This document shows, in pieces, positions 15,841 through 32,561 of a DNA stretch of 64,000 bases (the stretch's first letter is position 1; the number at the start of each line of letters is the position of its first letter). Below the pieces are notes generated by a model that did not search any database, had not been told where the DNA came from, and saw only the letters and a list, made by a program, of their open reading frames with translations. The DNA is taken from contig NZ_CP102258.1 of the NCBI RefSeq assembly GCF_025146565.1, forward strand, positions 1,768,001-1,832,000, given 5' to 3'. Origin of the DNA: Bacteroides eggerthii. Its GTDB lineage: Bacteria; Bacteroidota; Bacteroidia; Bacteroidales; Bacteroidaceae. The position numbers were made by a program, and so were the translations under genes.

Positions 15841-17106
15841 TCAGGCGGTCATACGTTTTCGGACAAGTGCGATGTTCTTATGCACAAGGTTCATAATCCG
15901 TTTATGGTATTTCGTATTTTTGTTACACAGCCCTCTCGACTGCAGCACCTTGAATGTTTCGAGGCTCAACTCTACGGTCTCGACCCTCTTGTTTTCTATC
16001 CGTGCGGAGAATACCAGCGTATTCGGCTTGAGGTAATACTCGCACTGTCCTACGCAGTGATGCAACGCATTGCCCTCGTCGTAGTAGGCTTCCACGCTGT
16101 CCAGCACACGGACGACTATCGTCCCGTCCGTGAACTCCAGACCGAAGAACTTGCCTTTCAACTCCCTGAAACGTGCCTCGTTTTCCCTTGCCCGTTTCAT
16201 CTGCTCCATGCGTTTTTTCTGCTCTTGGAGAATACGCACCTTGTTCTGGTACTTGTCGTGTTCGGCTTTCAAATCGGCAGGGCAAACATAGTGGGCGTTG
16301 TGCAAGTCTTTGCCGCACCTGTCGAGCATACGGAGATAATCTGTCCATATTCCCATGTCTTTTATCCGATACTTCTGGCGTAACACGATTTTGTAGGACG
16401 GCCAACAGAAATCCAAATCCTGCGGGTGGTCTATAAAATACTTGAGGTCGCGTTTGCGTCCGCTTTTGAGTATCGTTTCCACACGGCTGTCAGACAGCAG
16501 AGCTTTCATCAGCTTTTGCGGGGCGATGTCGGCGAACGAACCTTTCAAACCATTGCGTCGTAATTTCGGAATAGATGTATATCTCGGATAAACGTAACAA
16601 TCCGCAATATATTTATAAACATAGTTGTCGTTCCGCAGTTCCAATCCCGACCCGTACAGAAAACAATCCAAGTAACGTCCCATTGCCCGTTGTAAGGCCG
16701 TCAGAGCAGTTTTACCGTTCTCGTCCAACCAATACCTGGCCACTTCGCACACGTCCGTCCGAGCTTTCCGGCTCTTGTGATAATAAACGGTCATTCTGAA
16801 AATCCGCTGTACCTGAAATCCGTCCTGTGTGGTGATGACGGAAAAATAACTTTTCTCGTCCGTCTTGCGGCAAAGCGTGTCTTTGAGCGTCAGTTTGGCA
16901 TGGCAGTTCGGACAATGGCAATGTTTAGTTTTCGTCTCGTTCCACCGATACCCGCAATCGAGGCAGGTCGTTTGTCCGCTGGGCGTGCGAAAAGCGTAAT
17001 GTCCGACGGTATGACGGAACGCCCATTCTGTTTGCTTCTCCGTGATAGGCAGTAACCGCCTGTTGGCGGCTACTACCTTATGTTGGAATTTCGTTCGTGC
17101 TTTCAT
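15841..17106 (-). CDS. PcfJ-family protein (copy 1)
   Basis: A 421-residue protein. At residues 48-75 is a zinc-ribbon-like set (CLDCG ... CHCPNC). The PcfJ-type core is in the C-terminal half (GKDLHNAHYVCPADLKAEHD, a coiled Lys/Glu-rich helix, GLEFTDGTIVVRVLDS, EGNALHHCVGQCEYY, and a C-terminal KNTKYHKRI). The family is named after PcfJ of the enterococcal plasmid pCF10. It is widespread in mobile elements next to PcfK, and its biochemical role is not established. It is two bases downstream of PcfK. A second diverged copy lies at 33.9 kb. Confidence 0.8.
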   Translation of the reverse strand: MKARTKFQHKVVAANRRLLPITEKQTEWAFRHTVGHYAFRTPSGQTTCLDCGYRWNETKTKHCHCPNCHAKLTLKDTLCRKTDEKSYFSVITTQDGFQVQRIFRMTVYYHKSRKARTDVCEVARYWLDENGKTALTALQRAMGRYLDCFLYGSGLELRNDNYVYKYIADCYVYPRYTSIPKLRRNGLKGSFADIAPQKLMKALLSDSRVETILKSGRKRDLKYFIDHPQDLDFCWPSYKIVLRQKYRIKDMGIWTDYLRMLDRCGKDLHNAHYVCPADLKAEHDKYQNKVRILQEQKKRMEQMKRARENEARFRELKGKFFGLEFTDGTIVVRVLDSVEAYYDEGNALHHCVGQCEYYLKPNTLVFSARIENKRVETVELSLETFKVLQSRGLCNKNTKYHKRIMNLVHKNIALVRKRMTA

Positions 17107-24241: not shown

Positions 24242-24898
24242 TCACTTGTTTATCCGTATATCAGGATCGAAACTGTAGTTTCGCTTGCCCTCTATAACCG
24301 TGGCTTGCAGAAATAGTGCCCTGAAACGGTCGAATGTGTTTCTTGCGACGCCGTACCTCCCGCATATCATGGCGATCGTCCGCCCGTCATTTAACAAGCC
24401 GGCTATTTCTTCTCCCGCGTCGATCAGGCGTTGGAGCTTGGTATAGCTTCCCCTCCTGCGACCCAGTATGACGCCTTGTTCCCGTCGTGCCGCCAGGGCC
24501 TCTTTGGTGCGGGCGGATATGAGGTTTCGCTCGATCTCGGCCACCAGGCCGAACGCAAAGCATAACACCTTGCTGTTGATGGTATCGTCAAAAGAATAGC
24601 GATCCTTGGTACTGTACAGGAACACGCCTTTTTCGAGCAGTTCCCCCACGATCGTCATAATATCGGTAAGCGTGCGGCTTAACCTGGAAAGTTCTGTCAC
24701 GATCAACGTGTCCCCGGCTTTTAACCGCTTTACCGTTGCCCCGAGTTTCCGGTCGCGTCTTTTCTTGCTGCCGCTCACGACTTCCGTGACCCAGCAATCC
24801 ACCACCATGTTTCTACTACCGGCAAATCTCGTGATCTCGTGTCGTTGGTTAGTCAGCGTCTGCCTTCCCGTGCTGACCCTTAAATAAGCTACTACCAT
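24242..24898 (-). CDS. Serine recombinase (invertase/resolvase family)
   Basis: A 218-residue protein. VVAYLRVSTGRQ carries the catalytic Ser9. ELSRLSRTLTDIM and the helix ending AEIERNLISARTKEALA are typical resolvase/invertase segments, and a C-terminal HTH (IAMICGRYGVARNTF) follows. Size and layout match bacterial DNA invertases such as the Bacteroides Mpi type. It is divergent from the fimbrial operon. Its start is about 75 bases from an inverted repeat that encloses its own probable promoter. It is a strong candidate for the recombinase that inverts that segment. Confidence 0.85.
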   Translation of the reverse strand: MVVAYLRVSTGRQTLTNQRHEITRFAGSRNMVVDCWVTEVVSGSKKRRDRKLGATVKRLKAGDTLIVTELSRLSRTLTDIMTIVGELLEKGVFLYSTKDRYSFDDTINSKVLCFAFGLVAEIERNLISARTKEALAARREQGVILGRRRGSYTKLQRLIDAGEEIAGLLNDGRTIAMICGRYGVARNTFDRFRALFLQATVIEGKRNYSFDPDIRINK

Positions 24899-24971
24899 AG
24901 TCGGAAAAATTAAAAAAGCACGAAATTGCCTTTTCCCGACAATTAAAAGGTATAATCACTCTATTTATTTG

Positions 24972-25140
24972 CACGATAAATCGTTCGTTTTCAGAGGCAA
25001 AGGTATTGTATTTATTTCAACTAGACAAGCATTTCGTGCAAAATATTGAATAATAGAACATTAAAAGACGGGATTAGCTTTAGAAAGTATTTCGAATCAA
25101 TAAAATAATAATTTCACTAAAAAACGAAGGATAAAAAGTG
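24972..25140. repeat. Inverted repeat bounding a candidate invertible promoter
   Basis: The arm 24972-24991 matches the complement of 25121-25140 at 15 of 20 positions. Both have outer CAC and the shared core TTCGTTTT on one strand. About 129 bases lie between the arms. The segment sits between the serine recombinase (start 24898) and the first fimbrial gene (start 25239). Confidence 0.65.
24998..25028 (-). promoter_or_regulatory. Promoter inside the inverted repeat, pointing at the recombinase
   Basis: On the minus strand TTG-N20-TACCTTTG matches the Bacteroidetes consensus. The -7 box is 24998-25005 and the -33 TTG is 25026-25028. As drawn, the transcript would begin near 24990 and run into the recombinase. 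If the segment were inverted, the same promoter would sit at about 25107-25114 pointing at the fimbrial operon. Confidence 0.6.
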
Positions 25141-25183
25141 AATCACTGCTTGTTTTCGCGTGCTTGCAATTTAATAATGTAAT

Positions 25184-25222
25184 GTACCGGGGTGGCTGTT
25201 TCCTGCACATGCCTCCCGGTAC
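25184..25222 (+). promoter_or_regulatory. Leader hairpin before the fimbrial operon
   Basis: A perfect 8-bp stem, GTACCGGG with CCCGGTAC, encloses 23 bases and ends 16 bases before the start at 25239. It may affect translation or transcript stability; there is no T run, so it is not an ordinary terminator. Confidence 0.45.
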
Positions 25223-25238
25223 GGATAAAACAGAATAT

Positions 25239-26537
25239 ATGAGAAAAAGCTTACTCGTCTTGCCGTTTCTGTTGCTGCTGTCCGCCGGTTTCTCGGTGGC
25301 CCAGGAGCCACTACCGCGTGACACCGCCGCTGTGAAGGTCTATTTCCAGCAGGGACAGGCCACGCTGGATTCCACGTTCCGGGACAACGGTTCCCGCCTG
25401 GACTCGTTCTCCCGCCGTCTGGCCTCGTTTCGGGGTGATACCACCTTCCAGATTCGATCGGTTCGCGTCGTTTCCGGAGCTTCCCCGGAGGGTTCCTCCA
25501 AAATCAACAGGAGTTTGTCGGAACGGCGTGCCACGGCCATCCGCTCCTATCTCGAAAAGCGGGTTTCCCTGGATGGTCACGCCTTTGAGGTCGAATCTCC
25601 CGGCGTGGACTGGGAGGGCCTCGCCTCCCTGGTCGAATCCTCCGATATGTCCTACCGGGACGAAGTGCTGGAGATACTGTATCATACTCCCGAGTTCGTT
25701 ATCCGTGAGGGCAAGGTCGTGGATAGCCGCCAGCGTCAGCTGGGCATGCTGCACGGCGGCGAGCCGTGGTGTTACATGGAAGAGCGCTTCTTCCCGGAAC
25801 TGCGCGCCTCGGGAGTGCTCGTCGTCGTTGAAACCGGGCGGGAGGATACTTCCAGCCCTGAACCGGTCGCCCCGCCGCGCGATACCGTTGTCGTAGAGCA
25901 CCGGGACACGGTGGAGGTCATCCGACGCGACACGATGGATGTACTTTGCCCTATTGTCCCGGCCCGCAAACCCTTCTACATGTCGCTGAAAACAAACTTG
26001 CTCTACGACGTGGCCCTGGTGCCGAATATCGGAGCGGAGTTCTACCTGGGCCGCGGCTGGTCGCTGGGCGGTAATTGGATGTACGCCTGGTGGAACAGCA
26101 AGAAGCGTCATAATTACTGGCGCCTCTACGGCGGGGAGCTGGAGATCCGCAAATACTTCGGTCGTCGCGCGGCAGAAAAACCGCTTACCGGGCATCACCT
26201 GGGACTCTACGGGCAGCTGTTCACGTACGACTTCGAGCTCGGGGGTACGGGTTACATGGGCGGCAAACCGGGCGGCACGCTTTGGGAGAAGATGAACTAC
26301 GCTGTGGGTCTGGAATACGGCTACTCGCTGCCCGTCGCCCGTCGCCTGAACCTGGATTTCGTCATCGGCTTGGGCTACTGGGGCGGCGAATACCATACAT
26401 ACGACCCCGTCGACGATCATTATGTCTGGAAAGAGACCAGGCAGCGCCACTGGTTCGGGCCCACGAAAGCGGAAATCTCCCTCGTGTGGCTGATCGGCCG
26501 GGGTAATTACAACGAAAAGAAAGGAGGCAAGCGATGA
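25239..26537 (+). CDS. DUF3575/OmpA-like outer-membrane protein of the fimbrial operon
   Basis: From ATG 25239 the product has 432 residues with a signal peptide (MRKSLLVLPFLLLLSAGFSVAQ). Residues 35-210 resemble an OmpA-like periplasmic domain (QIRSVRVVSGASPEGSS, LSERRATAIRSYLEKR). From about residue 235 a beta-barrel-like DUF3575 domain follows (KTNLLYDVALVPNIGAEFYL, GWSLGGNWMYAWW...). Proteins of this type head Bacteroidales fimbrillin operons. Its stop overlaps the next start (ATGA). The upstream in-frame ATGs (25164 on) lie in the leader hairpin and lack a signal peptide. Confidence 0.75.
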   Translation: MRKSLLVLPFLLLLSAGFSVAQEPLPRDTAAVKVYFQQGQATLDSTFRDNGSRLDSFSRRLASFRGDTTFQIRSVRVVSGASPEGSSKINRSLSERRATAIRSYLEKRVSLDGHAFEVESPGVDWEGLASLVESSDMSYRDEVLEILYHTPEFVIREGKVVDSRQRQLGMLHGGEPWCYMEERFFPELRASGVLVVVETGREDTSSPEPVAPPRDTVVVEHRDTVEVIRRDTMDVLCPIVPARKPFYMSLKTNLLYDVALVPNIGAEFYLGRGWSLGGNWMYAWWNSKKRHNYWRLYGGELEIRKYFGRRAAEKPLTGHHLGLYGQLFTYDFELGGTGYMGGKPGGTLWEKMNYAVGLEYGYSLPVARRLNLDFVIGLGYWGGEYHTYDPVDDHYVWKETRQRHWFGPTKAEISLVWLIGRGNYNEKKGGKR

Positions 26538-27490
26538 AAAAGATATTCCATACGGTGACAATGGCGGCACTCCTTGTCGCCGCGACATCCTGCGAGCACA
26601 AGGAGCTGTGCCTCGACCACGCGCACGCGGTGGAGGTGGAGGTGGTCTTCGACTGGCGTAACGCTCCCAACGCCGCCCCGGCTTCCATGTCGCTCTACCT
26701 GTTCCCGGGTGACGGCGAGGCGTTGCGTTATGATTTCACGGGTCGCGACGGCGGCACCATCCGCGTTCCTATCGGAAAGTACGAGGCGCTGTGCCTGAAC
26801 TCCGACACCGAAAATATCGTTTACCGGAACACGGAACGCAAGGGTACTTTCGAGGTGACGACCCAGACGAGCCCGCTGCTGGGGGGCCTTTCCGCCCTGG
26901 GCGTGCGCTCCGAGGGTGCCCCGAGGGCTGACGGGGCTGAAGACGAGCGCGTCGCGCTGTCCCCGGATATGCTTTGGAGCGACCACGCGGAAAGCATCGA
27001 GCTGAAACATGTCCCGGTTCGGCAGAGGATCACGCTTTACCCGGAACAGTCGGTTTGCAGGTACACGGTCGAGATCCGCAACGTCGAGAACCTGAAATAT
27101 GTCTTTGGTGTCAGCGGTTCGATCTCAGGCCTCGCGGGAGGCCTGTTGCCCGGCACGGACATGCCCAACGCGAACAAGGGCGCTTACCTTGCCGTGAAAG
27201 TGAACATCACGACCAAGGACGGGGCCCGTGTATATCCGGCAGAATCTGTCGGCGAGTATGATTGGGCCGCCGTGGCTGTCGGCACGAACTGGCAGGCCGG
27301 TAAGAAGTACATCTACACGCTTGACTTCTCGGAGGGTGCCGGTAAGGTCGATCCGGAGAAAGAACAACCTGAAGATCCTACCGTTGACCCGTTCGATCCG
27401 GGCGAGGATATCCTGGGCAGCCCCATCAAGTTCACCGTGGAGGTTAGCGAGTGGGAAGACGCCGGCGCGCAGGATATAACAACTATGTAA
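26534..27490 (+). CDS. Chimeric lipoprotein: DUF5119 N-terminus joined to fimbrillin C-terminus
   Basis: A 318-residue lipoprotein (signal peptide ending VAATSC). Residues 24-205 are a DUF5119 domain (VVFDWRNAPNA, MSLYLFPGDGEALRYDF, LCLNSDTENI, LKYVFGVSGSISGLAGG). From about residue 212 the sequence stops looking like DUF5119 and reads as the end of a fimbrillin (GAYLAVKVNITTKDGARVYP, YDWAAVAVGTNWQAGKKYIY, VDPFDPGEDILGSPIKF). I read this as a deletion that fused two adjacent operon genes at about 27150-27180. The frame is open, so a fusion protein could be made. Confidence 0.7.
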   Translation: MKKIFHTVTMAALLVAATSCEHKELCLDHAHAVEVEVVFDWRNAPNAAPASMSLYLFPGDGEALRYDFTGRDGGTIRVPIGKYEALCLNSDTENIVYRNTERKGTFEVTTQTSPLLGGLSALGVRSEGAPRADGAEDERVALSPDMLWSDHAESIELKHVPVRQRITLYPEQSVCRYTVEIRNVENLKYVFGVSGSISGLAGGLLPGTDMPNANKGAYLAVKVNITTKDGARVYPAESVGEYDWAAVAVGTNWQAGKKYIYTLDFSEGAGKVDPEKEQPEDPTVDPFDPGEDILGSPIKFTVEVSEWEDAGAQDITTM

Positions 27491-27683: not shown

Positions 27684-28004
27684 ATGAACAAGCAGGAGCT
27701 GATAAAAGCGGTAGCCGCCGCGAGCGGGTTGTGCGTCGTGGATGCCTCGAAAGAAATGAGCGCTTTCGAGAATATTTTGGAGGACTGTATGGCGCGAGGG
27801 GAAATACTCTCGTGGTCTGGCGTGGGCGCCTTCTGCGTGCGGGAACACAAGGCTCGCCCGGGACGCAACCCGTTCACGGGGTTGGGGATGAGGATTCCGA
27901 CCCGTAAGGTCGTGAAATTTTCCCCGGGAAAGTCCTTGCGCGAGGCTGTCATAAAGAAAGGAATCCACGGGAGGCGTGCTCGATGCACCGATAAGGAAAC
28001 ATGA
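27684..28004 (+). CDS. HU-family DNA-binding protein
   Basis: A 106-residue protein: MNKQELIKAVAAASGLCVVDASKEM, then GVGAFCVREHKARPGRNPFTG and IPTRKVVKFSPGKSLREAV, all typical of the HU/IHF family, with a short extra basic tail. HU-like proteins bend DNA. The position inside a phase-variable fimbrial operon suggests, but does not show, a link to the inversion or to regulation. It sits between the chimera and the large fimbrillin gene. Confidence 0.75.
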   Translation: MNKQELIKAVAAASGLCVVDASKEMSAFENILEDCMARGEILSWSGVGAFCVREHKARPGRNPFTGLGMRIPTRKVVKFSPGKSLREAVIKKGIHGRRARCTDKET

Positions 28005-28022
28005 TATAAATGACTAAATGAC

Positions 28023-30770
28023 ATGAATATGGATCTAAAAAAGAATTTATGCCGGGGGCTCGGGAACCGGAGCCTGCCGGTATTGTTTTCGGTTCTCCTG
28101 TTCGCCTCGTGCCAGGACGACCTGCAAACGAGTGTACACACGGGGCCCGGCATCCGCTTCTCGGTTTCCGACGGGGCGGGATGGCGTGCCACGCGAGCCG
28201 AGGGTAGCCCCGCGGAAGAGACGACCCCGAGGGATTCCCTTCTGGGCGTGCTGCCCCTGCAGGCCGCGGACGGCGGCGAGGGGTTGTACCTGCACGCCAT
28301 GATCTCCGACAATACCGGCAACGCCCTTGCGGATGACGAACGGATCGGCACCCGTTCCGCTCCCGTGAAGGACATGGAGACCTACGGGAATTTCGGGGTC
28401 TTGGCCTACCTCTACACGGGGGCGTGGGACGGCAGCGCCACGCCCGGTTTCATGTACAACACGGAGGTGCGCGGCGATGGCGGCGTGTGGTCGCCCGCGG
28501 CGGATCACAACTGGCCGGGCGAGGGGCAGAAACTCCGTTTCTTCGCTTATGCGCCCTACAACACTCCGGGGATCGAGCTACCCGCACAGCATGAGGCGGG
28601 ATACCCCGGCTTAACCTATACTGTTCCCGAAAAGGTACAAGACCAGAAAGACCTGCTCGTGGCCGCTTCCGGGGAGATGGCGGGCGACCACAACGCCACG
28701 GCCCCGCTGACCTTCAGCCACGCCCTGACCGCCGTCCGGTTCGTTGTCGGTGACGACATGCAAAAAGGAAGTGTGACGAAAATAGCCCTCCGCGGCGTGT
28801 ACGGCAAGGCCGTTTATGATATGGACGGAGACTCGTGGAGTGCTTTCGAGGAAACGAAAGATTTCTCGCAGACGCTTGATAAAAAAGTGGACGGCCAGCC
28901 CGGGAATGAGATCACCTCCGGGGAGGGCACTTTCATGATGATCCCGCAGCAGCTGCCCCAGGGCGCGGAGATCGAGGTGGTCTTTACCGATGACCTGACG
29001 GGAACCGAGCGGACGCTGAAAGCCGACATCGCCGGGGCGACATGGCCCCAGGGCAAGACCGTCACTTACCGGATTTCCACCTCGAGCATCCTCGTCGTGC
29101 CGACTTTCGAGGTGACTGCTCCCGAGGCTTTCACCTATCAAGGAGGTACCAGCGAGTACTCGGTGACCAGCTATCTCGCCGTCTCCCGTGAAGGCGATGC
29201 AACGCAGGGTGTGCCGCTGGCGTGGACGGCCGAGTTCGTCGAGGATGACGGTAGCGGGGGCTACAACGTGATCGACCGTCCTGAATGGCTCACTGCTTTC
29301 ACCGCGAGCGGTAACGGTGGCACGTCTGCCACGATGCTATCTGCCACGATCGCGGCCCAGCAGGGCGTTACCTCCAACCCGCATAACGAGGTGTTGCGGG
29401 CGGCAGCTCCCGTGAGCGGTACCTACGACCTCTCGACCAAGGGCGGCACCGAACCTGTGAACACGGCAAACTGCTACGTTATCAACGCCCCCGGTACATA
29501 CAGCTTGCCGCTGGTTTATGGCAACGCCGTCAAGAACGGGGCGGCCAACACCTCGGCCTATATCCCGTCGGTCATCGACATCCCGGATGAGGAAGAGCGT
29601 TACTTGACACACTTCGTAAACCATCTCGATTCGGTTATCACCGATCCGTATATCTACAACAACGCGAACTGCACGCCCGCCAATGCCACGTTGGTATGGC
29701 AGGACGAGCCGGAACTGGTGACGAACGTCCGCCTTTCGCCTGACAAGCGCGGCTTGCTTTTCGACGTGCCGCAGGAATCGATCAAGCAGGGAAACGCCAT
29801 CGTCGCCGTGCGTGACGCCGCCAACACCATCATGTGGAGCTGGCATATATGGGTGACGGATTTCGTGCCGGGACTCCCCCCGACCGTGGAGGAGCGTTAC
29901 GATCCCCGGAAGACCCAGCGCGACAAGGTCGTGACCAATTACCAAGGGGTGCAATATACCTTTATGGGAAACTGTATCGGCTATTGTTATGAAGGCATCA
30001 CCACCTACGATGCCCGCAGCGTGAAGGTGCGCTTTACACAGGCGGAAACCGGTGCTATAAAGGTCATAACGCTCATACAAACGCCTGCAGTCGTAAATCC
30101 CGGCAATGCGCCCTATTATCAGTTCGGCCGCAAGGATCCGATGCTGCCCGGTATGCTCGACGCTTCTGGTTCCTCTGTCGATAAGAGTTGCTATTCCGAC
30201 GGCTACGCGTTTAAACTCTCGAATGACCAAAGCTCCATCGGCGCTAGCATCCAGAACCCGCATATATTTTATGGCGTGAGAATATCCAGTTGGTTCTCCG
30301 GTGCTCTTCATTATTACAACCTTTGGAGTGCCGACAACATGGAGTATAATGTGCATAACGACAATGCGGTGGTCAAGACGATTTACGATCCCTCGCCCGT
30401 CGGCTACCATCTGCCTGCGTCGAACGCCTTCACGGGATTTACGTTTGATGGCACGCACAGAAGCGGCTACGACAAGATTAATACTCCCTATCGCGACGAC
30501 ACGGAGGCTACCTATAATTTTGGTATGGAGTTGTATTGTAACAAGATGATGGGCCAGGGAAGTTACGACACTGCGGGCGGTACAGTCTTCTTTTCGTTTG
30601 CGGGTCAACGCCCCTATCAGAGAGGCAAGCCTACCATGTGCGGTATAGATGGTACCTGCTGGAAGGCCGTATATGCTACTAACACTGTCATCCGCCGGCC
30701 TTATATAGTTGCCCCGGAAAACACCTACAGCAACGCCAGCGCCTACTTGGTGCAACCCGTTAGGGAATGA
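28023..30770 (+). CDS. Large fimbrillin-family lipoprotein
   Basis: A 915-residue exported lipoprotein with a lipobox LLFASC at about residues 25-31. The N-terminal 350 residues follow the fimbrillin/Mfa plan (MYNTEVRGDGGVWSPAADHNWPG, AYAPYNTPGIELP, LTFSHALTAVRFVV, FMMIPQQLPQGAEI). The C-terminal part ends in a lectin-like or paralogous surface domain with DPSPVGYHLPASNAFTGF. It is probably the tip or accessory fimbrial subunit. It is the last operon gene before a terminator. Confidence 0.75.
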   Translation: MNMDLKKNLCRGLGNRSLPVLFSVLLFASCQDDLQTSVHTGPGIRFSVSDGAGWRATRAEGSPAEETTPRDSLLGVLPLQAADGGEGLYLHAMISDNTGNALADDERIGTRSAPVKDMETYGNFGVLAYLYTGAWDGSATPGFMYNTEVRGDGGVWSPAADHNWPGEGQKLRFFAYAPYNTPGIELPAQHEAGYPGLTYTVPEKVQDQKDLLVAASGEMAGDHNATAPLTFSHALTAVRFVVGDDMQKGSVTKIALRGVYGKAVYDMDGDSWSAFEETKDFSQTLDKKVDGQPGNEITSGEGTFMMIPQQLPQGAEIEVVFTDDLTGTERTLKADIAGATWPQGKTVTYRISTSSILVVPTFEVTAPEAFTYQGGTSEYSVTSYLAVSREGDATQGVPLAWTAEFVEDDGSGGYNVIDRPEWLTAFTASGNGGTSATMLSATIAAQQGVTSNPHNEVLRAAAPVSGTYDLSTKGGTEPVNTANCYVINAPGTYSLPLVYGNAVKNGAANTSAYIPSVIDIPDEEERYLTHFVNHLDSVITDPYIYNNANCTPANATLVWQDEPELVTNVRLSPDKRGLLFDVPQESIKQGNAIVAVRDAANTIMWSWHIWVTDFVPGLPPTVEERYDPRKTQRDKVVTNYQGVQYTFMGNCIGYCYEGITTYDARSVKVRFTQAETGAIKVITLIQTPAVVNPGNAPYYQFGRKDPMLPGMLDASGSSVDKSCYSDGYAFKLSNDQSSIGASIQNPHIFYGVRISSWFSGALHYYNLWSADNMEYNVHNDNAVVKTIYDPSPVGYHLPASNAFTGFTFDGTHRSGYDKINTPYRDDTEATYNFGMELYCNKMMGQGSYDTAGGTVFFSFAGQRPYQRGKPTMCGIDGTCWKAVYATNTVIRRPYIVAPENTYSNASAYLVQPVRE

Positions 30771-30944: not shown

Positions 30945-31811
30945 ATGGAAATGACAGGATTTACACAAAAACTCCAGAAAGAGATCGAGCGTAAGATCGT
31001 CCAGATAGAGACCTCCGATCACAGTATACTGAACAAGTCTATCGAGGCATCACGTGTTTTGGGTGACGCGTTCAAGCGTCTGAAAGAGTTCATCATCTCT
31101 TACGAGTTCGCCAGCGAGGAGGAAGAAATCTTGTTTTTCAAGGAGATAAAACCCCGCCTGTTTTCCCGGTTAATCTATTACCGGAAGATTTACAATATCG
31201 AGATGAACCGTCCGGTGGGGAGTATCGAATCGCAGAAGGAGTACCTCCTGACGGAGATGGATGATCTGGGTCGGTACACCCGCAAACGGCTTGACTTTAT
31301 CCGTTATTACCGCAGCGGCGCCACACACCTGGACAGCCTCTATTTCCTGCGCGGGCAGACCGACACGGAGCAATACCTGGAAACCTTCTACTATGAACTC
31401 GACCCGCAGTTTTCGACAAACGCGGATTTCAAGGTGGCGAAAATCCTGGCCAACGACATGTTGTCGGTTTATCTTATGGGCGAATTGGAATCACTGGAGA
31501 GTACGAACCACCGGAACATGGTTCTCCCATTGCCTGACGTGCGTCCGACATGGCAGGACTCGAAGACGGATCTGACGGAACTTATTTACCTGCTCGACAG
31601 TAAAGGCTGCTTCGGCAATGTGCCACTCACGCAACTGGCCAGCTACATTTCCAACGCTTTCAACGTACACCTCGACATGAACCTTTCGAGGACATTCTGC
31701 GATATGAAAATCCGAAACAACCCGACACCGTGGCTTGACAAGGCGACAGAGGCCCTGCTTAAACGTATGCAGACGTGGAAGCGAAACAAGAAAAACGGCA
31801 ATTCCGAGTAG
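30945..31811 (+). CDS. rteC: RteC-family regulator of a conjugative transposon
   Basis: A 288-residue protein matching the RteC family throughout: an N-terminal helical region (MEMTGFTQKLQKEIERKI), EEEILFFKEIKPRLFSRLIYYRKIYNIE, and a C-terminal winged-helix-like end (LTELIYLLDSKGCFG, SRTFCDMKIRNNPTPWLDK). In CTnDOT, RteC activates excision genes in response to the upstream RteA/RteB system; those partners are not in the window. This copy is intact although the element around it is degenerate. Confidence 0.85.
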   Translation: MEMTGFTQKLQKEIERKIVQIETSDHSILNKSIEASRVLGDAFKRLKEFIISYEFASEEEEILFFKEIKPRLFSRLIYYRKIYNIEMNRPVGSIESQKEYLLTEMDDLGRYTRKRLDFIRYYRSGATHLDSLYFLRGQTDTEQYLETFYYELDPQFSTNADFKVAKILANDMLSVYLMGELESLESTNHRNMVLPLPDVRPTWQDSKTDLTELIYLLDSKGCFGNVPLTQLASYISNAFNVHLDMNLSRTFCDMKIRNNPTPWLDKATEALLKRMQTWKRNKKNGNSE

Positions 31812-31878
31812 AACATGAACCGGTAAGGCACTTTATCCCTTATAGAAGCACTGATAATCAGCGTTGTATATAACAAAA

Positions 31879-31896
31879 AAAACCGAGGTCGGTTTT
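31879..31896 (+). terminator. Small terminator-like hairpin after rteC
   Basis: A 7-bp stem, AAAACCG with CGGTTTT, and loop AGGT, 67 bases beyond rteC. GAGGTCGG inside it can also pair with CCGACCTC at 32009-32016, so an alternative longer structure is possible. Confidence 0.5.
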
Positions 31897-32070
31897 CCCT
31901 CGTAACTGTCTTTGGAACTTTTCTGAACACCCGTGTTTGCACCCGTATGTCTTCACCGCATGAACCGTTGAGAATCAGTTCACTGCAAATTATCAAAAAA
32001 AAGTCGTACCGACCTCGTCTTAAGCTGTCCATATAACCCCGACCTTTGTAACAGACTAAAAAAAAAGAGT

Positions 32071-32355
32071 ATGAAAATCATAGTGTTCGGTTCGCGAGCC
32101 TATAACGAGCTTGTCGGACGTATAGAGAAAATAGAGGGGCCGCAATCGCCTCTCCCCCTGGAAAGGAGCGTGTACGGAATAAGGAGTATATAAACGACGA
32201 ATGGATGGACGGCGAGCAGGTCTGCCGTTACCTGGGCATCAGCGGGCGTACCCTTCAACGCCTCCGCTCGGATCACGTGATCACCTGTTCGACCATCAAC
32301 CGGAAGCTGTATTATTCCCTCACGGAAATCCGCCGTGTCCTGAAGGAGCGTTCCC
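32071..32355 (+). pseudogene. Excisionase-like HTH gene, frameshifted and 3' truncated
   Basis: The ATG at 32071 gives MKIIVFGSRAYNELVGRIEKI, typical of the small element-encoded HTH proteins. At the CCCCC run (about 32155) the frame shifts by one. Adding one C joins it to GKERVRNKEYINDEWMDGEQ and a MerR/excisionase-like HTH (VCRYLGISGRTLQRLRSDHV, RKLYYSLTEIRRVLKE). Near 32350 it runs into the reversed mobilization gene and is cut. Excisionase function is lost unless translated by slippage. Confidence 0.65.
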
Positions 32356-32561
32356 CGGTCGGTCTTTACCACCCGGAACGCCTCGTTGAACACTCTCGCT
32401 TTGATAAAAGCGGCTTTTGACAATAGCCCGGACTGCTCGTAAAGGTCGAGGAAACGGGCATGTTCCACGGCTGAAAAGTTTACCGAAAAGCGGTAAACGG
32501 CCGGGTCGTTTTTCGCGGGTCGTCCCCCTTTGCCCCCTCGGGGCTTTCTGTTCTTTTCCAT
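32350..32561 (-). pseudogene. Mobilization (MobA/MobC-type) protein, N-terminal fragment
   Basis: The ATG at 32561 gives MEKNRKPRGGKGGRPAKNDP, then a mobilization-type core (YRFSVNFSAVEHARFLDLYEQSGLLSKAAFIKARVFNEAF) up to VVKTDRGTL. Beyond about 32350 the frame runs into the HTH gene in antisense and has no mobilization features, so about the first 70 residues remain. The normal protein is a relaxase accessory. Deletion between two convergent genes explains the junction. Confidence 0.6.

Follow-up and report, generated by a model that had tools for sequence, protein, structure and literature searches.

Promoter inversion as a means of controlling fimbriae is familiar from Escherichia coli, where the recombinases FimB and FimE invert fimS, the element bearing the fimbrial promoter, and where expression of the recombinases is tied to the orientation of the switch. 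Both enzymes are tyrosine recombinases, and the control operates through transcript ends, not through an invertible promoter that target and recombinase share. Here we describe a locus in a 64,000-nucleotide stretch of the Bacteroides eggerthii genome (assembly GCF_025146565.1, contig NZ_CP102258.1, positions 1,768,001 to 1,832,000; hereafter the window, in whose numbering coordinates are given) at which a fimbrial promoter likewise appears to be invertible, although the recombinase alongside is of the serine type. We judge it rather likely that positions 24986-25126 form an invertible cassette whose one promoter serves the invertase in one orientation, with fimbriae OFF, and the fimbrial operon in the other (ON), with the adjacent recombinase as the likely enzyme.

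Invertons served by serine invertases are already known in the Bacteroidota; what is new here is a divergent invertase that would share its promoter with its target. Mpi of Bacteroides fragilis, for instance, is reported to govern seven polysaccharide promoter inversions as a master recombinase (PMC4747536). The Mpi family model (NF009949) is the best-scoring NCBIfam model for the window recombinase, at 239.7 bits; this falls under the cutoff of 272, and the protein is therefore not filed as Mpi. The first-pass annotation of this DNA, which had proposed a comparison of the arms with Mpi-type recognition sites, was thus partly right, Mpi being the nearest family. In contrast to Mpi, only one local site pair lies within the 64 kb of the window, and the promoter is directed at the invertase's own gene.

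Also related are modules of integrative conjugative elements, the IP-ARG classes, for which a local invertase beside the inverton and a -33 TTTG / -7 TANNTTTGY promoter have been reported (PMC8748976). These modules resemble our locus in the adjoining invertase, the promoter type and, probably, the mobile setting, and differ from it in that the window invertase is divergent and faced by the promoter. At IVp-I of B. fragilis, the locus of Tsr19 (BF2766), one to three inverted repeats lie between promoter and genes, and their number correlates inversely with transcription (PMC4747536). The variable repeat number recalls the movable 12-bp units that we find in sister loci of the window (below), whereas the tyrosine recombinase and the polysaccharide operon of IVp-I set it apart, as does the window's best pair, with one site per arm. 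According to a 2025 survey of a defined gut community, invertases near invertons are generally not placed for regulation by the inverton promoter, the one possible exception involving a tyrosine recombinase (PMC11892184); the view in the first-pass annotation that the present arrangement is unusual agrees with this. In the literature searched, which lacked most subscription papers, we found no description of an inverton promoter driving a serine invertase.

One promoter between two genes

The features on which the argument turns, together with the operon beyond them, are as follows.

24242..24898, minus strand: serine recombinase (DNA invertase), 218 aa, Resolvase domain, ATG at 24898
24899..24971, minus strand: fixed recombinase leader, free of any consensus promoter
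24972..24997, plus strand: left 26-bp recombination site, TT core at 24984-24985
24986..25126, no strand: putative invertible segment, 141 bp between cores
24998..25005, minus strand: -7 element TACCTTTG, directly abutting the left 26-bp site, with the core 20 bp away from its 5' end
25026..25028, minus strand: TTG of the -33 element, followed after 20 bases by the -7 element
25115..25140, minus strand: right 26-bp recombination site, core at 25127-25128 (AA on the plus strand)
25141..25238, plus strand: fimbrial operon leader, holding a GTACCGGG/CCCGGTAC hairpin
25239..26537, plus strand: DUF3575 / OmpA-like protein, first gene of the fimbrial operon
26534..27490, plus strand: DUF5119 protein
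27684..28004, plus strand: HU-family DNA-binding protein, inside the operon
28023..30770, plus strand: fimbrillin-like protein (Mfa_like_1), 915 aa

On the minus strand, TTG (25028-25026), a spacer of 20 bases and TACCTTTG (25005-24998) are aimed at the recombinase ATG (24898). We counted as a promoter candidate either a strict TAnnTTTG or a version with one mismatch and TTG 18-22 upstream, and by this definition no plus-strand candidate lies between the recombinase and fimbrial genes in the present orientation. Inverting the segment in silico moves the promoter to 25107 (+), where it faces the operon starting at 25239, and leaves no recombinase-directed candidate behind. The anatomy drawn in the first-pass annotation, namely a promoter pointing at the recombinase, no good promoter for the fimbrial genes as assembled and a reversal of the two upon inversion, is thus recovered, and the fimbrial character of the operon is borne out by its DUF3575/OmpA-like, DUF5119, HU and Mfa_like_1 fimbrillin products. 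Inverted repeats enclosing a segment with a TAnnTTTG promoter, the form by which Bacteroidota invertons are recognized, are present in the window.

The window recombinase matches PF00239 (Resolvase) with E 3.6e-33, its Ser9 region (YLRVST) aligns with the solved DNA invertases 4m6f and 3uj3, and its catalytic domain carries the Ser and Arg motifs of a small serine recombinase.

For the window strain we infer flipping, the acting enzyme and transcription in either state as follows. The adjacent serine recombinase most likely flips 24986-25126 at the two inverted 26-bp TT-core sites. In the OFF state, as assembled, the single Bacteroidota-type promoter would face the recombinase; the enzyme would probably be low and autoregulated, and flipping would be possible. 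In the ON state, after inversion, the promoter would face the DUF3575-DUF5119-HU-fimbrillin operon and the recombinase would lose its only consensus promoter, so that ON would be held more stably than OFF (hysteresis), persisting until residual or basal recombinase flips the segment back. With the -7 element lying right against the recombination site, recombinase bound there would probably cover the start point as well and block the promoter.

Recombination sites in the window

The 15/20 imperfect inverted repeat around 129 bases to which the first-pass annotation had drawn attention exists, its best register pairing CACGATAAATCGTTCGTTTT (24972-24991) with the reverse complement of 25121-25140. 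We rejected this repeat alone as evidence for a switch: a local inverted repeat as good arises in 75/200 Markov shuffles of the intergenic DNA, and a 15/20 pair is present in 7/20 shuffles of that DNA. With the repeat by itself within chance, the finding stands or falls with comparative evidence. An alternative pair of arms, TTTGCACGA (24968-24976 / 25034-25042), was likewise set aside; it matches at 9/9 positions but is not among the best sites of the matrix described next.

A matrix built from 15 sites of relatives, not mutually independent and none of them from the window, ranks the left arm as the window's best plus-strand match (20.0 bits) and the right arm as its best minus-strand match (14.9 bits, p 0.0075 by itself); both scores were equalled together in 1/2000 shuffles. 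With an enlarged matrix of 33 sites, which holds no window sites but includes some members found using a matrix that did, the only inverted pair found across the 64 kb is the one formed by these arms, and 10 Markov windows yield no pair at all. Once aligned, the arms prove to be built alike, with TT in the middle, G/C bases on either side of it and an A/T-rich half outermost at each end. Sites of this build would be expected of a small serine recombinase that uses a 2-base core.

These sites also bear on whether the window holds a relic, its ancestral arms decayed and its segment fixed in the fimbriae-OFF orientation. Only 16/26 positions are identical between the two 26-bp sites, as against the perfect 16-bp repeat of a second copy in the same genome, and the window copy may therefore flip slowly or be locked; nor does the repeat exceed chance, and a single orientation is known for the window, both of which fit a relic, the second also counting against an active switch. 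Yet in both sites the TT core and the G/C bases beside it are preserved, each site is the top match on its strand with the relatives' matrix, a locus with flipped relatives (L153) likewise has unequal sites, and the recombinase and DUF3575 reading frames are open. On balance we regard decay as improbable.

Inversion among relatives

A DNA search of 61 genomes with the intergenic region matched the window itself only. A pattern joining arm core and promoter (CGTTCGTTTTCAGNNNCAAANNTA, one mismatch allowed) matched in 10/399 genomes of the family, with no hit of the reversed control among the matches listed. Seven matches were exact: the window, a second copy 41 kb away in the same genome, and one each in five other genomes, and each of the six loci besides the window lies between a 61-63% identical recombinase and a DUF3575 gene. 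Four one-mismatch matches (L045, L046, L051, L054) had no recombinase in the flanks fetched and were dropped. The second switch of the window's genome (G000:C1:1833671-1834800, or L041 4672-5760) comprises a 62% identical recombinase, its own invertible promoter and DUF3575 gene in tandem layout, and the perfect 16-bp inverted repeat mentioned above.

More distant loci with recombinase, arms and DUF3575 exist in other families of the order; the recombinase is found in 41/150 genomes of the family of G539 (E <= 1e-50) and in 19/180 genomes of the genus of G1053 (E <= 1e-60). We analysed 73 recombinase loci, those taken with wide flanks and hence a subset of the recombinase matches, seeking site pairs up to 1600 bases from the recombinase and 90-260 bases apart. 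The 33-site matrix placed an inverted pair in 34/73; the other 39 gave no pair at threshold, yet L152 and L194 among them have arms, recognized by eye and positioned with the motif. DUF3575 operons that lack an adjacent recombinase (L002-L007; plasmid p5482 and its kin, L038-L040) have a site pair in 0/9 cases within 1 kb upstream. Among the loci of the first recombinase search, only the window and L009 have a DUF3575 match within the flanks fetched, and the viral_contigs set matched neither the CGTTCGTTTTCAGNNNCAAANNTA pattern nor the recombinase protein.

The window recombinase falls in a clade of nine rows (SH-aLRT 99* in a quick tree), in which the promoter faces the recombinase in four loci and is flipped in three. 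It faces the recombinase in L152 and L153 and away from it in L193 and L194, and the segments of the latter two align to those of the former when flipped (z 9.9, 11.6, 9.8 and 13.0) and not when left as they stand (z 0.2, -0.6, 0.3 and 0.5). Between L153 and L193 the inner half-sites are exchanged at the TT core. L192, judged by eye, appears flipped too; the contig stops short of its left arm. The window's own segment aligns with that of L154 in the same orientation (z 5.2) and with those of L193 and L194 when flipped (z 4.0 and 3.9).

Sister loci provide a finer record. Across L056, L057 and L058, 25/4012 aligned columns differ, all within the arms: in L058 a 12-bp unit has changed arms, and the three vary at one base of that unit. 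L043 and L059 differ at 116/4058 columns, 24 in the arms and 92 outside. In simulation, exactly two inversions at the TT cores take L058 to a sequence identical to L056 throughout 189 bp, and L043 to one identical to L059, out of 12 states reachable in each case; L057, one base from L056, was not reached. In essence, these loci preserve a letter-for-letter record of repeated site-specific inversion. Judged by comparison, then, segments of this type do invert in relatives of the window, and for those relatives the comparison likewise establishes the sites and the recurrence of arms just upstream of the recombinase.

This record also speaks to whether the arms might be operators only, bound by the recombinase to repress transcription without any inversion of DNA. 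Measured from a core, the -7 element starts at 19-21 bp in 23 of the 30 loci where it is strict, the kind of fixed spacing beside the site that a repressor site would show. Flipped alleles within one clade and exact double-inversion products in sister loci disfavour such a role for the relatives, and we consider it very improbable indeed.

Two features of the relatives deserve mention in their own right. The arms of L041, L043 and L056-L059 contain movable 12-bp units whose two-arm total is two in 6/6 loci (1+1 or 0+2); these units are probably a record of shifted inversions, and perhaps tune expression. At L152, DUF5119-like and fimbrillin DNA lying 275-1996 nt upstream of the recombinase is directed at the arm, the fimbrillin ending within the left site. 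The operon there looks as if inverted at a cryptic site in the fimbrillin gene, and may be an assembly artefact.

What drives the recombinase

The loci fall into two layouts. In the tandem one the arms follow the recombinase gene, and the OFF promoter is directed back at the 3' end of that gene; in the window's the arms precede the recombinase start, and the promoter faces either toward the recombinase or away from it. Where both a pair and a strict -7 element are present (30 loci), the promoter faces the recombinase in seven and away in six with arms upstream, and points back in 14 and downstream in three with arms downstream. Near copies (L056-L058, L043/L059, L084/L085, L169/L171) are not independent in these counts, and four loci with a pair and no strict -7 element (L083, L155, L157, L204) were left out. 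Of the loci facing downstream, L159 also matches the -7 element on its opposite strand; neither there nor at L182 was a DUF3575 match found.

Beyond the arms, divergent fimbrial genes are found at L154 (DUF3575, DUF5119, fimbrillin), at L194, L179 and L156 (DUF3575) and at L170 and L174 (fimbrillin). At L193 the gene faced by the flipped promoter holds a run of N (a scaffold gap).

The recombinase-directed candidate is the invertible promoter in 7/7 facing loci, partly by definition because facing was called from the motif. It is found in 0/6 flipped loci, scanned within 350 nt (264 nt for L192). The fixed leader holds a strict or near-consensus promoter in 0/13 loci with arms upstream of the recombinase. 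Taken together, these counts are suggestive of self-silencing, the flipped orientation leaving the recombinase without a promoter. We put forward, tentatively and with rather less conviction than the cassette itself, that this is a recurrent self-extinguishing switch, in which the only promoter of a divergent serine invertase is the invertible one and the enzyme is made only when fimbriae are OFF. OFF cells would keep flipping; ON cells would shut off the enzyme and remain committed until basal recombinase returns them. If so, this would be a natural hysteretic one-promoter toggle, retained in a clade that spans two families of the order, other parts of the tree having similar layouts. The mutually exclusive switch imagined in the first-pass annotation accordingly divides in two: invertibility and alternative targets are well supported by both orientations within the clade and exact products in the sister clade, and self-silencing draws on anatomy only.

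An ordinary inverton is an alternative. Here only the fimbriae would be switched, the recombinase would be transcribed from a weak, non-consensus promoter in its own leader whatever the orientation, and the OFF promoter would face the recombinase merely by position. The tandem relatives lend this some weight, as their invertible promoter cannot drive the recombinase and another promoter must therefore serve that gene there; a non-consensus TACCTTTT is indeed present in the window's recombinase leader, and the power of a motif search is limited. Against it stand the 13/13 fixed leaders scanned without a strict or near-consensus candidate, and a distance from inner core to recombinase ATG that stays within 80-136 nt in 16/17 loci measured (805 nt at L156). 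We regard this alternative as unlikely, if a credible one.

Several observations weigh against the invertible cassette proposed for the window, self-silencing included. A candidate promoter occurs in 29-46% of shuffles of the six flipped stretches and none in 54-71%; with shuffles so often lacking one, the absence of a promoter from the flipped loci is suggestive and not proof. Geometry alone would aim an OFF promoter at any recombinase on that side. Upstream genes at L158 and L152 are directed toward the arm, giving no divergent target, and the sequences of L153 and L192 run out 602 and 264 nt ahead of the recombinase, short of any visible gene. Two of the nine clade members, L195 and L200, gave no arms upstream, the latter ending at a contig end. 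The window's row sits on a long end branch (0.87), which makes its exact place in the tree unsure, and its segment compares weakly with those of L152 and L153 (z 3.1 and 2.2 in the same orientation, 1.0 and 1.7 flipped). The genome has seven serine-recombinase matches, one of them the 62% identical protein that accompanies the second switch; the adjacent recombinase is accordingly named as acting enzyme from its position.

A promoter shared exclusively by enzyme and target would predict, from sequence alone, asymmetric switching rates and ON-state memory. Control of the invertase becomes directly testable with the 141-bp segment and two reporters.

Genomic setting

Rfam matched no family in the 64-kb window, and hairpins in the leaders of the recombinase and DUF3575 genes have fold z scores of -1.41 and -1.55, which are not significant. 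Within the fimbrial operon, the HU-family gene (27684-28004) sits between the DUF5119 and fimbrillin genes. RteC and MobC-like genes (30945-32561) follow directly 3' of the operon and a PcfJ gene lies at 15841-17106; the proximity of these genes suggests that the switch rides on a conjugative element.
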